Positions 4,992-11,530 of a stretch of DNA of 64,000 bases are shown piece after piece. The stretch is taken from the NCBI GenBank assembly GCA_028281825.1, contig JANQJC010000025.1, positions 1-64,000 on the forward strand. The letters run 5' to 3'. This stretch comes from Flavobacteriales bacterium (GTDB lineage Bacteria; Bacteroidota; Bacteroidia; JANQJC01). The position numbers and the translations under genes are program-made. The notes below the pieces were generated by a model that did no database searches, was not told the DNA's origin, and worked only from the letters and a program-made list of their open reading frames with translations. The number at the start of each line of letters is the position of its first letter. The stretch's first letter is position 1.

Positions 4992-5966
4992 TTACTTTCT
5001 GGCGATGACTCTCTCCACCGCTTGAACGATATCAGGAGTGTCAAGGCCATACTTGGCTAGTAGTTGTTCCGGCTTTCCACTTTCACCAAACTTATCATCC
5101 ACTGCTACCATTTCAATAGGTGCAGGGTAGTGCATCCCCAATGCTTGGGCAATTGAATCTCCCAAACCACCGTTGCGTTGATGTTCTTCTGCAGTCACTG
5201 CACATTTCGTCTTCTTCACACTTTCTATAACTGCTTCTACATTTAAAGGTTTAATGGTGTGGATATTAATTAATTCAGCATTGATGCCTTTTGCTTCCAA
5301 TTCTTTAATAGCAGCAATTGCTTTCCAAACCAAATGTCCTGTGGCGAAGATGGTAACATCACTACCTTCTTTCATCATCAATGCCTTGCCTATCTCAAAC
5401 TTTTGGTCTGCAGGGGTAAAGTTAGCCACCTTTGGTCTTCCAAAGCGGAGATACACCGGGCCATCCCATTCTGTTATGGCCATCGTTGCAGCATATGTTT
5501 GGTTATAATCGCATGGGTTGATTACCGTCATATGAGGTAGCATCTTCATCATACCGATGTCTTCTAATATTTGGTGAGTAGCACCATCTTCACCTAATGT
5601 GAGCCCTGCATGTGAAGCACATATCTTTACATTTTTACCTGAGTAAGCTATAGATTGACGGATTTGGTCATAAACCCTGCCAGTTGAGAAATTGGCAAAC
5701 GTACCCGTGAATGGGATTTTACCACCAATGGTCAACCCTGCTGCAACACCCATCATGTTGGCTTCTGCTATACCTACTTGAAAAAACCTATCTGGAAACT
5801 CTTTCGCAAAAGCGTTCATTTTTAGTGAGCCAGTAAGGTCAGCACATAGCGCTACCACATTTGGGTTTTGTTTTCCCAATTCGGTAAGGGCCGCACCAAA
5901 TCCTGAACGGGTATCTTTATCATCACTTAATTTTTCAAAATACATGGGCTGAGTAGATGTTTCCAA
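4992..5966 (-). CDS. transketolase C-terminal subunit
   Basis: 324 aa; Pyr domain and C-terminal domain motifs (MHYPAPIEMVAVDDKFGESGKPEQLLAKYGL). Confidence 0.92.
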   Translation of the reverse strand: METSTQPMYFEKLSDDKDTRSGFGAALTELGKQNPNVVALCADLTGSLKMNAFAKEFPDRFFQVGIAEANMMGVAAGLTIGGKIPFTGTFANFSTGRVYDQIRQSIAYSGKNVKICASHAGLTLGEDGATHQILEDIGMMKMLPHMTVINPCDYNQTYAATMAITEWDGPVYLRFGRPKVANFTPADQKFEIGKALMMKEGSDVTIFATGHLVWKAIAAIKELEAKGINAELINIHTIKPLNVEAVIESVKKTKCAVTAEEHQRNGGLGDSIAQALGMHYPAPIEMVAVDDKFGESGKPEQLLAKYGLDTPDIVQAVERVIARK

Positions 5967-6000
5967 GGTTATTTGCTTTTAAATATGGTAAAAAAATCAG

Positions 6001-7428
6001 TTAGTATAGTTTAATTACTTCAGAACTTCCAGATTCTATTTTGAATGATTTTTCAATGGTATAAATAGACTTTTTAGAATTCTTAGGGCGGAAAACGGCG
6101 CGATACCTTCCTGGCAATAGCACCAGTGTTTCTTGCTGGCTTTCTACGCGTATGTTGTATATCAATTTTAGTTCATTACCATCCTCATGATATACACTAG
6201 CATACCCCGCTGATTGCTTCAGTATATTGGCAATGCCAGGTTGCGGAATGGCTACTTTTGTAGTGTGACTTTGCTTAATCTCTACATCGCTCACATACAT
6301 TCTTGGCATGGTAAGTATTTCCAAATCATATTTCCCAACTATATATCGCTCTTTGTCCATGAAATCCTGCACGTGTAGGGTTTGCATTTCGCCAGCTTTT
6401 CGCACAATGGCTTTCAATTCTTTATAGTCACTCCTGCCATCAGCGCGTAAATCAAGGTCACCTTGTGGCGCATCGATAGCTATTATTGTATGCTTGCCTG
6501 GGGTAAGTGTAACGCTATCCACAAAAGATGGAGGGATAGTATGGGCTACCACTCGGTAGGTTGGCAATGGGTCGATTACTAGGGTGTCGGGATTACCATG
6601 GTTATCCATTGTATGCACAAAATTGTAAAGCACTTTGCTCGACTGGCTATGGTAAAAAGTCATGTTAACGTTAGTTTCTGTTGGATTGCCTGCAACATCT
6701 AATAGATTAACTTGGGCCGTAGTAGAATTCAATGCTTGAGAAATAACCACATTTAGGGCGGTTTTGAATGTCCTTGTATCACTTGCATCGTAAAAGTTAC
6801 CCACACATTCAAACTGTTTGATTAGGTCTTTATCCAGTCCAACGCCAATCACAAAAGGTTTTAACACAATTCCTTTTGCTTGAAGTGCCTGCGAAAGGGC
6901 GCAAGGGTCACCATCACACTCCTCAATACCGTCAGTTATCAGGATGATAATATTCCGGCAATTGTCGCAGCTAGGAAAATCTTTGGCTGATTGTTCCAAA
7001 GAGTAGGCAATAGGTGTTGTGCCTTTGGGTTGAATAAGTTGCAGTTTGTTCTTGATGTTGGGGATATTACCCTTATAGAATGGAACTTCCAGCTTGGTGT
7101 CTTTGCAATCACGCATGGAATTGGATACATATTGTGATTGGTGCCCATAGGCCCTCAATGCCAATTCAAGGTGGTCCACATATTTAAGGCTATCCAATAA
7201 TTCATTCAGGAGCTTTTTGGCGACATCTATTTTCATTTTGCCATCCATTTGCCCAAACATGCTTTGCGAACCATCAAAAACGAAAAGAATGCGCGTAAGG
7301 GGTTTTTCTTGTGCTACTTCCTGCGCATTAGCAGTATAGGCCAAGCTTATCAAGCATATTAGTACTAGAGCAAAATGCTTGATACTAGTTTTTGCAAAGG
7401 ATGCAATTGTATATTTCAATTGAACCAT
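6001..7428 (-). CDS. secreted VWA-domain protein
   Basis: Start moved to MVQLKYTIAS... (ATG at 7428); signal peptide; MIDAS-like DGSQSMFG, 'IILITDGIEECDGDPC'. Confidence 0.85.
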   Translation of the reverse strand: MVQLKYTIASFAKTSIKHFALVLICLISLAYTANAQEVAQEKPLTRILFVFDGSQSMFGQMDGKMKIDVAKKLLNELLDSLKYVDHLELALRAYGHQSQYVSNSMRDCKDTKLEVPFYKGNIPNIKNKLQLIQPKGTTPIAYSLEQSAKDFPSCDNCRNIIILITDGIEECDGDPCALSQALQAKGIVLKPFVIGVGLDKDLIKQFECVGNFYDASDTRTFKTALNVVISQALNSTTAQVNLLDVAGNPTETNVNMTFYHSQSSKVLYNFVHTMDNHGNPDTLVIDPLPTYRVVAHTIPPSFVDSVTLTPGKHTIIAIDAPQGDLDLRADGRSDYKELKAIVRKAGEMQTLHVQDFMDKERYIVGKYDLEILTMPRMYVSDVEIKQSHTTKVAIPQPGIANILKQSAGYASVYHEDGNELKLIYNIRVESQQETLVLLPGRYRAVFRPKNSKKSIYTIEKSFKIESGSSEVIKLY

Positions 7429-7463
7429 TTTATATGCAACTGCACAAACCGTGCAGAAATTGG

Positions 7464-8372
7464 CTAGTAATCTCCCAAAGTTTCTTCCAACTGGGCTAAT
7501 GCAGCCTCTAATTGTTGGTCGTTTGGAGCAATACCATGCCATGCGTGTGAACCCATCATAAAGTCAACTCCCTCGCCCATTTCCGTCTTCATTAGCACAA
7601 CTACAGGCACACCTTTCCCTAAGTGATTTTCTTTTGCTTCAGTCAGGGTTGAAATAATACTTTCAAAACTGCTTCCGTCCATTTCCATCACATCCCAGCC
7701 AAATGATTTCCATTTAGCTGATAAATCTCCCAAATCCATCACGTCTTTGGTGTCACCATCTATCTGTCTTCCATTAACGTCAATGGTTGCAATGATATTG
7801 TCTACTTTGTGGGCTGCGCCAAACATGGCAGCTTCCCATATTTGGCCTTCTTGCAATTCACCATCTCCATGCAGGCTGTACACAATATGATGGTCGTTGT
7901 TCAATTTTTTTGAAAGCGCCGCGCCCAATGCAACTGACAAGCCTTGACCAAGTGAGCCAGAGGCAACCCTTATTCCTGGCAGTCCTTCTTCAGTAGCTGG
8001 GTGGCCTTGCAGCCTTGAATCCAGTTTACGAAAAGTGTTTAGTTCTGACACTTCAAAATAGCCATATCTGGCCAGTGTACTATACCAAATAGGTGAAATA
8101 TGCCCATTAGAGAGAAAAAACACATCTTCGCCATTGCCATCCATGGTAAAGTTTTTGGCATCAGGCTTCATGATTTGATGGTAAAGGGCAAGAAAAAATT
8201 CAGTACAACCCAGTGAGCCTCCTGGGTGGCCCGATTGCACTGCATGAACCATTCTTACAATATCCCTTCTGGTTTGTGATGCTAGTCTTTCTAACTCGTA
8301 AATATCAGGCATAACTTTACTCAGTTTTTGTCTTTCTTCTAGTATTGATGATTGGGTTGAGGTAGTAGGCAT
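7464..8372 (-). CDS. transketolase N-terminal subunit
   Basis: TPP-binding domain: GHPGGSLGCTEFFLALYHQIM, HGDGELQEGQIWEAAMFGAAHKVDNIIATIDVN. Confidence 0.93.
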   Translation of the reverse strand: MPTTSTQSSILEERQKLSKVMPDIYELERLASQTRRDIVRMVHAVQSGHPGGSLGCTEFFLALYHQIMKPDAKNFTMDGNGEDVFFLSNGHISPIWYSTLARYGYFEVSELNTFRKLDSRLQGHPATEEGLPGIRVASGSLGQGLSVALGAALSKKLNNDHHIVYSLHGDGELQEGQIWEAAMFGAAHKVDNIIATIDVNGRQIDGDTKDVMDLGDLSAKWKSFGWDVMEMDGSSFESIISTLTEAKENHLGKGVPVVVLMKTEMGEGVDFMMGSHAWHGIAPNDQQLEAALAQLEETLGDY

Positions 8373-8677: not shown

Positions 8678-9088
8678 ATGAATCTTCTAAATAAAGTAGT
8701 TTTTATCGATGATGACATCTACACCAATGAGTACCATAAGAGGTTTGCTGCTAAAGTCGGTTTAGCTAAGGAAGTAATTTGTTTTGAGACAGGTGAGAAA
8801 GCATTGGAGTACCTGAAGGCAATTACCGAGAAATATGATTTTCCAGAATTGATATTGGCGGATATAAACATGCCACAAATGAACGGACATGAGTTTGTGA
8901 AAGAGGTGTCAAATATGTATGGCTACAATCCATTGAGAACTGTGGTTGCTTTTTTGACAGCTTCAAAGGATGCGAAGGATATGTTGAAGGCGAATGAAGA
9001 AGATGTGGAATTTTACTACTGGAAGCCGTTGGATGAAAAATTGTTAGCAACCATACTAAATGACGGGTTTGGAATCAAATTAAATTGA
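8678..9088 (+). CDS. stand-alone response regulator receiver protein
   Basis: VVFIDDD acidic pocket, LILADINMPQMNGHEF phospho-Asp, WKPL; ATG at 8678 preferred to 8561. Confidence 0.85.
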   Translation: MNLLNKVVFIDDDIYTNEYHKRFAAKVGLAKEVICFETGEKALEYLKAITEKYDFPELILADINMPQMNGHEFVKEVSNMYGYNPLRTVVAFLTASKDAKDMLKANEEDVEFYYWKPLDEKLLATILNDGFGIKLN

Positions 9089-9516
9089 TGGATATGGAGA
9101 TTCTTAAGAAAGCTGTTTTTGTGGATGATGATAAGTTTGTAAATATGTATCACAAACAACTGACATCTAAAGTTGGGCTGGCAAAGGAAGTGCATTTTTT
9201 CGAAGATGCTGAAGAAGCACTTTCTTACCTAAAAGGCATTCAGAGTGAAGAAGAGTTTCCTGAACTTATTTTGGTTGACATTAATATGCCGAAAATAGAT
9301 GGGCATCAATTTGTAAAAACCGTAAATCAACTGGATAATTATAATCCCAATCAGGTGATGATGGCATTTTTAACCAATTCCAAGGATATTAAAGATGTGA
9401 TTAAGGCAGATGAGGATAAAGTGAATTATTACTACTGGAAGCCATTGAACTTCAAGCTAATCGATAAACTGCTTTATGACGGTTTTAGCCTCAGGCTTAT
9501 GGAGGAATATGGATAA
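9085..9516 (+). CDS. stand-alone response regulator receiver protein (paralogue of preceding gene)
   Basis: LILVDINMPKIDGHQF, VNYYYWKPLNFKLIDKLLYDGF; ATGA overlap with the upstream receiver. Confidence 0.87.
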   Translation: MMDMEILKKAVFVDDDKFVNMYHKQLTSKVGLAKEVHFFEDAEEALSYLKGIQSEEEFPELILVDINMPKIDGHQFVKTVNQLDNYNPNQVMMAFLTNSKDIKDVIKADEDKVNYYYWKPLNFKLIDKLLYDGFSLRLMEEYG

Positions 9517-9618: not shown

Positions 9619-11133
9619 ATGCAGCAGGTAATTGAATTTTTTCAAAAACTCTTTCTTGTTGAAAGTTGGCCACCAAGATGGTACTGTGGCAAATGGACTG
9701 ATTTTCACGGCTGGCTTTATATTCTCTCTGACCTTGCGATTTGGGCAGCGTACTTTGCTATTCCATTGCTATTGATAAGATTTTTATCTCAGAAAAAGGG
9801 CATTCCCCTACCTTCAGTTTTTTTGCTATTTGGGGCATTTATACTCTTATGCGGAATGACGCATTTTATGGATGCCATTATCTTTTGGTGGCCAGCATAC
9901 AGGTTAAGCGCACTAATCAGATTTTTTACTGCTGTAGTTTCTTGGGCAACGGTTTTTGCTCTTTTTAAGTTTTTCCCTATAGCACTGAGTTTGCGTACTT
10001 CTGAGGAACTGGAAGAGGAAAACAGAAAGAGGCAAGAATCTGAGCAAATGTTCAAGAATTTGCTTGAGGCTACTCCTGATGCCTTGGTTATAGTGAATCA
10101 GGAAGGAAATATAGAATTGGTAAACAAGCAATGTGAAAATGTATTTGGGTATGCTAAAGAGGAATTAATTGGACAAAAAGTGGAAATGCTAATACCCAAC
10201 AGCTTTATAGCTGAGCAAAATGGACATAGAAACAGTTTTTTTGCTAATCCTAAAATACATTCATTGGAGGGTAATTTGGAATTGGGCGGCTTAAGAAAGA
10301 ACGGTCAGGGATTCCCTGTTGAAATAAGCTTGAGCCCTCTGCAAACTGAGAGTAAGCTGCTGGTGTCTGCTGCAATAAGGGATGTAACCATGCGCAAGGA
10401 AGCAGAAGTGAAACTCAAACAGTTTAATGAGAAGCTAGACCAGAAGAATAAGGAATTGGAGCAGTTTGTTTATGTGGCGTCACATGATTTACAAGAGCCA
10501 ATCAGAACTATTAACAGTTTTGTAAACCTTTACAAATCAGAGTTTGGAGATACTCAAAGTGATGAAGCTATTGAATATCTTCAGTTTATTCAAGGTGCAG
10601 GTGAAAGAGCGCAACAACTAATCGTAGACCTGTTGGATTATTCAAAGCTAGAGAGAAACAGGAAATTAGCAAAAGTTAATCTAAATAAGATAATCGATAA
10701 TGTAAAGAGTGACCTTGCTGTTAAAATAGCTGATAAAAAAGCAGAGATAAGGGTAGGGAATTTACCTACCTTACAAGGTTATGAGACTGGTTTGAGACTA
10801 CTGTTTCAAAACCTTATTAGTAATGCAATAAAATTTGCAAGAGACGGGTTTGGTCCTCTTGTAGAAATATCCTCGAAAGAAGGTGACAATGAATGGGAGT
10901 TTTCTGTTAAAGACAATGGTATTGGCTTTTCAGAAGAGTTTAAGGAGAAGGTTTTTGTAATATTCAAGCGTTTACATCCCAAGAGTAAATATGAGGGTAC
11001 TGGTATTGGTTTAGCCCATTGCAGAAAAATTGTAGAACTACATAATGGAAGAATTTGGGCCGATTCAGTGCCTGGAGAAGGGAGTACTTTTTATTTTACC
11101 ATATCAACTAATTTAAATGAAGAAGAAGCTTAG
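9619..11133 (+). CDS. ETR1-like (ethylene-binding-domain) PAS histidine kinase
   Basis: N-terminal three-TM domain SD(x6)Y(xx)IP...GAFILLCGMTHFMD matching plant ETR1/SynEtr1; PAS domain; HisKA VYVASHDLQEPIRTINSF; HATPase N/G boxes (NLISNAIKFA, VKDNGIGF, GTGIGLAHCRKIVELHNGRIWADS). Confidence 0.9.
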   Translation: MQQVIEFFQKLFLVESWPPRWYCGKWTDFHGWLYILSDLAIWAAYFAIPLLLIRFLSQKKGIPLPSVFLLFGAFILLCGMTHFMDAIIFWWPAYRLSALIRFFTAVVSWATVFALFKFFPIALSLRTSEELEEENRKRQESEQMFKNLLEATPDALVIVNQEGNIELVNKQCENVFGYAKEELIGQKVEMLIPNSFIAEQNGHRNSFFANPKIHSLEGNLELGGLRKNGQGFPVEISLSPLQTESKLLVSAAIRDVTMRKEAEVKLKQFNEKLDQKNKELEQFVYVASHDLQEPIRTINSFVNLYKSEFGDTQSDEAIEYLQFIQGAGERAQQLIVDLLDYSKLERNRKLAKVNLNKIIDNVKSDLAVKIADKKAEIRVGNLPTLQGYETGLRLLFQNLISNAIKFARDGFGPLVEISSKEGDNEWEFSVKDNGIGFSEEFKEKVFVIFKRLHPKSKYEGTGIGLAHCRKIVELHNGRIWADSVPGEGSTFYFTISTNLNEEEA

Positions 11134-11530
11134 CTGTATTTTACTGATTGATGATGATGAACCTACGAATTATTATAATAGTAAGGTTGTAAAAAAAGCA
11201 GATTGTTGCAAACGAATACAAATATGCCTTGGTGTAGATGAAGCAATTGCATTTTTGAAAAATGGGGATGGGGAGGATTATCCAAGCCCTGAATTAATAT
11301 TTCTTGATATTAATATGCCAGGCAAGGACGGTTGGGATTTTTTGGATGAATATAGCTCTTTGTCTGAAGAAGCAAAAGGGGATGTTGTTGTGGCAATGTT
11401 GACGACTTCTCTCAATCCGGCGGATGAAGAAAAAGCTTTTGAGAAAGGAGCTAAGGGGTTTGCGCGAAAGCCCCTTTCAATTGAGCAAATCCATAATATA
11501 ATCAAGAAACACTTACCTGAATATTGGTAA
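11117..11530 (+). CDS. stand-alone response regulator receiver protein, overlaps kinase 3' end
   Basis: LLIDDDEPTNYYN, LIFLDINMPGKDGWDFLDEY, ARKPLS. Confidence 0.9.
   Translation: MKKKLSCILLIDDDEPTNYYNSKVVKKADCCKRIQICLGVDEAIAFLKNGDGEDYPSPELIFLDINMPGKDGWDFLDEYSSLSEEAKGDVVVAMLTTSLNPADEEKAFEKGAKGFARKPLSIEQIHNIIKKHLPEYW

Follow-up and report, generated by a model that had tools for sequence, protein, structure and literature searches.

A putative AzoEtr1-type ethylene receptor and its probable response regulator in a Flavobacteriales bacterium

Direct proof of ethylene perception by bacteria is confined to cyanobacteria and Azospirillum (PMC11819568). AzoEtr1 from A. brasilense binds 14C-ethylene when present in yeast, and function was not rescued by its mutants D35A and C75A (PMC11819568). 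SynEtr1 (slr1212) from Synechocystis PCC 6803 is presented in the accounts of PMC11819568 and PMC6682694 as a bacterial ETR-type receptor with a phosphorelay to a regulator, and its likeness to the system reported here is one by description. SynEtr1 is paired with slr1213 and senses light through a GAF chromophore, whereas no GAF domain was found by Pfam in the protein described below. Seven residues are known as requirements for ethylene binding by ETR1 (PMC6682694, PMC11819568). Its copper ligands are Cys65 and His69, with Asp25 nearby (PMC12643061, PMC6586836, PMC13012798), and models place the Asp in a salt bridge with a Lys that is conserved (PMC13012798). Cyanobacterial receptors possess a single N-terminal Cys, as opposed to two in plants (PMC6682694).

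The locus was analyzed within a window of 64,000 nucleotides, i.e., the whole stretch of DNA covering positions 1 to 64,000 of the forward strand of contig JANQJC010000025.1 (assembly GCA_028281825.1). The kinase gene and its N-terminal domains are as follows.

9619..11133, + strand: putative ethylene receptor histidine kinase, 504 aa (ORF, Pfam, homologues and structure matches of the kinase part)
9706..9993, + strand: predicted ETR1-type three-helix transmembrane sensor domain (Pfam, alignments, AlphaFold2)
Residues about 144-257 of the kinase: PAS domain

The ORF 9619-11133 on the + strand is exact, with an ATG start, 504 aa and no internal stops, while the antisense strand contains many stops in the one frame inspected. 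Its domain content was directly apparent from Pfam. Residues 30-125 matched ETR1_N (PF25487, 'Ethylene receptor 1-like, N-terminal domain') with E=2e-32 and 111.7 bits at a cut-off of 27. Further matches were obtained to PAS_9 (residues 153-257; 2.8e-15, above cut-off), HisKA (residues 280-346; 7.3e-10, 39.2 bits vs. a cut-off of 26.9) and HATPase_c (residues 388-496; 8e-25, 87.9 bits vs. a cut-off of 26.4). The protein thus carries an ETR1-type and a PAS domain ahead of a complete HisKA-HATPase kinase. In the PDB, the kinase half matched many solved histidine kinases (best match 3e-45), and the PAS region resembled FixL-type PAS structures. Among the NCBIfam matches listed, no equivalog scored above its cut-off.

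AzoEtr1 shares this organization, with a three-helix ETR domain carrying all seven residues, one PAS domain and a HisKA-HATPase kinase. Its gene was identified in A. brasilense Sp7 (L136), where it encodes 525 aa, matching the length given in PMC11819568. The window protein (504 aa) is similar to it over the full length (4e-29) with 22% identity, and D35, C75, H79 and K98 of AzoEtr1 align with D38, C78, H82 and R101 of the window protein. Both differ in the N-terminal motif (PHGxCxxWRP in AzoEtr1, WPPRWxCGxWTxFHGW in the window protein) and in the basic residue of helix 3, which is Lys98 in AzoEtr1 and Arg101 here. Moreover, AzoEtr1 stems from an Alphaproteobacterium, and no Asn-type paralogue has been described for it. 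A single-domain response regulator gene, AzoRR(etr1), overlaps the 3' end of azoetr1, as is the case in the window.

The seven key residues of the window protein are D38, Y45, I48, P49, I75, C78 and H82, which match AzoEtr1 and the cyanobacterial domains column by column. Conservation of these residues was observed directly: Y45, P49, I75, C78 and H82 were invariant in 59 aligned Bacteroidota sequences, and D38 and I48 were at least 90% conserved. Because of this conservation, the seven-residue pattern is not a product of chance. All seven were retained in 110 of the 134 domains collected. At helix-3 position 101, where Arg replaces the Lys modelled as the partner of the Asp (K91 in ETR1, K98 in AzoEtr1), either Arg or Lys was present in 117 of the 123 sequences retaining the Asp, and five sequences combined Asp with Leu. 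Cys23, located N-terminally and immediately ahead of the sensor domain, occurred in 124/134 domains. Arabidopsis ETR1 likewise has the seven ethylene-binding residues and a three-helix sensor, and its K91 position is basic, corresponding to Arg in the window protein. It differs by its GAF and receiver domains, its two N-terminal cysteines and plant signalling via CTR1. The Arabidopsis ETR1 sequence in the alignments served as a secondary check only.

A preliminary description, derived from the letters of the DNA, had proposed a PAS histidine kinase with an ETR1-type domain for Cu(I) and ethylene, and the profile match, the AzoEtr1 alignment and the conservation among orthologues all point to such a domain. 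The spacing it had given for the seven ETR1 residues was recovered exactly. The peptide it had quoted is present in the protein, but spans residues 37-85 rather than 38-82, with S37 as its first residue and D38 as the Asp. The profile search and the orthologue comparison that it had named as possible refutations returned ETR1_N and invariant C78/H82, respectively.

AlphaFold2, applied to the window domain with 58 homologues, predicted helices at residues 28-58, 65-88 and 94-124 with a mean pLDDT of 88.8 and a pTM of 0.72. This check of the N-terminus, also proposed beforehand, yielded three long helices, and the sensor domain comprises three predicted transmembrane helices. EPR data on ETR1 are only partly consistent with AlphaFold (PMC13012798), and therefore the model is taken to back the three helices only. 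Neither a fold match at E<=0.001 (Foldseek) nor a sequence match for the sensor domain was found in the PDB, in line with the fact that an experimental ETR transmembrane structure does not exist (PMC13012798).

Three receiver genes surround the kinase gene.

8681..9088, + strand: single-domain response regulator (Response_reg 6.5e-13), in start-stop overlap with the gene 9088..9516
9088..9516, + strand: single-domain response regulator (Response_reg 3.9e-14), separated by a 102-base gap from the kinase gene downstream
11117..11530, + strand: single-domain response regulator, 137 aa (Response_reg 2e-13)

The last 17 bases of the kinase gene are shared with the start of the gene 11117-11530. In related Bacteroidota loci, a receiver gene was located directly downstream of the kinase gene in 44 of 80 cases and was not found at this position in the other 36. 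Since azoetr1 and azorr show the same layout, since 44/80 loci carry a receiver and since the paralogue described below does likewise, the 11117-11530 regulator is the probable cognate partner of the window kinase. The two upstream receivers, 8681-9088 and 9088-9516, were considered as conserved partners as well, and this was unsupported by the relatives (80 loci). An output domain is absent from all three receivers. Further upstream, as read from the translations, the transketolase on the minus strand (4992-8372) appears as two separate half genes, 7464-8372 and 4992-5966; the ORF 6001-7542 between them is unrelated and possibly encodes a von Willebrand A domain protein.

In order to describe the distribution of the family, ETR1_N was scored in Bacteroidota genomes, and a match over the Pfam cut-off was present in 22 of 399. 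In one family, that of genome G180, it was present in 30 of 200 sampled genomes. A GTDB scan with a profile built only from the close branch confirmed 159 relatives, of which the best 80 were retained; because of this profile, the 80 named loci are biased to the close branch. Spirosoma, Fibrisoma, Larkinella, Dyadobacter, Mucilaginibacter, Niastella, Ferruginibacter and others are among these best 80 of 159. A viral scan with the close-branch profile returned no relatives. The 59 other genomes listed beside the window genome all share the class only.

In the tree, the window branch (support 99/98) was set apart from PHGxCYxW-type domains of Bacteroidota. It is marked by the branch-specific motif WPxRWxCGxWxxFHGW ahead of helix 1, the Cys of which is Cys23. 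By sequence, the window kinase is a member of this large Bacteroidota branch, which includes Spirosoma, Dyadobacter, Mucilaginibacter, Larkinella and Chitinophagaceae. The ETR1_N domains of these kinases (L033-L112) are 52-70% identical to that of the window protein, with the same motif and frequently with a neighbouring receiver gene. They differ in length (about 380 to 1500 aa), and many lack or multiply the domains following the sensor. A literature search retrieved neither a characterised Bacteroidota ETR1_N kinase (Spirosoma, Mucilaginibacter etc.) nor data on binding or expression for any member of this phylum. The preliminary description had placed such domains in plants, cyanobacteria and scattered bacteria; the window protein is less exceptional than this implied, as the family is widespread in Bacteroidota and one case from the Proteobacteria has already been characterised. 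In a separate locus (G056:C1:1439822-1440222; L006, L010, L123, L127), the sensor domain of an ETR kinase extended across two frames, an apparent frameshift.

Taken together, the window kinase and its regulator are described as a two-component system with a putative ethylene receptor, of the same type as AzoEtr1. That the kinase detects ethylene by means of Cu(I) is considered likely on sequence evidence, with a probability of roughly 0.8. By analogy with AzoEtr1, SynEtr1 and ETR1, from which copper loading, ethylene binding, topology and phosphotransfer are inferred, the three N-terminal helices would build a dimeric bundle, in which C78 and H82, assisted by D38, would hold one Cu(I) per monomer as the attachment site for ethylene. 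The D38-Arg101 pair would connect the binding site with helix 3. Ethylene binding would act through the PAS linker to alter the activity of the HisKA-HATPase kinase, and the phosphate would go to the receiver protein of the gene 11117-11530, which overlaps the kinase gene at its downstream end, and possibly also to both upstream receivers. The PAS domain may respond to a further signal. A Cu-transporting P-type ATPase was detected in the window genome (533 bits, cut-off 397) together with several HMA proteins, and such proteins were present in nearly all control genomes; copper handling thus exists, as it does in most bacteria, which permits copper loading and does not go beyond that. No ACC deaminase scored above cut-off in the window genome, so that an independent link to plants is not provided. 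If receptor and partner are real across soil, freshwater and plant-associated Bacteroidota, ethylene sensing would extend to a major phylum, and cultured carriers are at hand for testing (Spirosoma, Mucilaginibacter, Dyadobacter).

C78 and H82 might instead bind copper in a sensor of Cu(I) or redox state, answering copper supply or oxygen rather than ethylene. The copper ligands are conserved as well as any residue, Cys23 is nearly universal, and Cu(I) stiffens ETR1 itself (PMC12643061). Moreover, Cys23 is also lost in five of six kinases without copper ligands, a hint of a metal or disulfide role, with about two independent events according to the tree. However, Y45, I48, P49 and I75, which act in ethylene binding and not in copper ligation, are about equally conserved, and a pure copper sensor would have no obvious need for them. 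In addition, the single Cys of cyanobacterial receptors was proposed to form a dimer disulfide (PMC6682694), and the bacterial members tested bind ethylene as far as stated in PMC11819568, where SynEtr1 is cited. A copper or redox sensor is therefore regarded as unlikely. Slightly less probable still is that the domain binds another small ligand in the Bacteroidota branch, for instance CO, a different alkene or a volatile of microbial origin. Retuning of this kind is conceivable for bacterial ETR1-type domains, the branch is separate and well supported with an N-terminal motif of its own, and among its named members are bacteria from water and soil for which plant contact is not evident. Every mapped ethylene-binding residue is nevertheless unchanged, and the segment in which the motif differs precedes helix 1 and is not part of the binding site as mapped.

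It is highly improbable that the sensor domain is a relict or non-signalling and that the kinase is controlled mainly via PAS. The copper ligands have been lost in L158, L164, L165 and L168-L170 of one Bacteroidota family, and the domain can consequently decay while the kinase persists. In the window copy, by contrast, the site is intact, and the strong branch-wide conservation indicates selection on the sensor. The six copies without copper ligands are short ETR-like kinases of about 343-365 aa, in which His82 is replaced by Gln, Phe or Tyr and Cys23 is mostly lost too. These kinases may sense something without copper.

Three features go beyond the preliminary description: the regulator that probably partners the kinase, the additional receiver genes, and a paralogue with Asn in place of the Asp. 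This paralogue is a second ETR1_N kinase in the window genome (G000:C53:74901; locus L002:1501-3042), with 373 aa and no PAS domain. Over residues 1-134 it is 61% identical to the window protein. It carries Asn at Asp38 and Leu at Arg101 and retains the Tyr, Ile, Pro, Ile, Cys and His, and a receiver gene lies downstream of it as well. According to a 2026 review (PMC13012798), the corresponding D25N mutant of ETR1 still functions, with its affinity reduced about 100-fold. By this analogy it is possible, albeit doubtful, that the window genome encodes two natural ethylene receptors that differ in affinity. The window copy (Asp38/Arg101) would be the canonical one. In the paralogue, ethylene binding would be weaker by a factor of about 100 and its coupling to helix 3 would be altered, and this protein would signal to a receiver of its own. 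Such a pair, if true, would allow a wider ethylene range to be read, or one output at low ethylene and another at high ethylene. The Asn/Leu combination is a natural version of the ETR1 mutation studied for its affinity effect, and both copies offer a direct test of how affinity and signalling depend on the Asp-Lys/Arg link.

Copies with Asn or Ser plus Leu were also present in L021, L142, L150 and L114; in L021 and L114 this copy was the sole ETR gene found in the genome. Joint loss of Asp38 and the basic residue at position 101 is no more than suggestive. On raw counts of the first set, with kinship ignored, Fisher's test gave p of about 1e-6. Coupled loss did not hold once relatedness was considered, as the tree left one well supported independent pair and significance was not reached, and it was contradicted by the added L170 and by the five Asp-with-Leu sequences. 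A distant ETR-like domain with Asn for Asp and without the N-terminal Cys was encoded on a plasmid (L138) of Chondrinema litorale, a seaweed bacterium.
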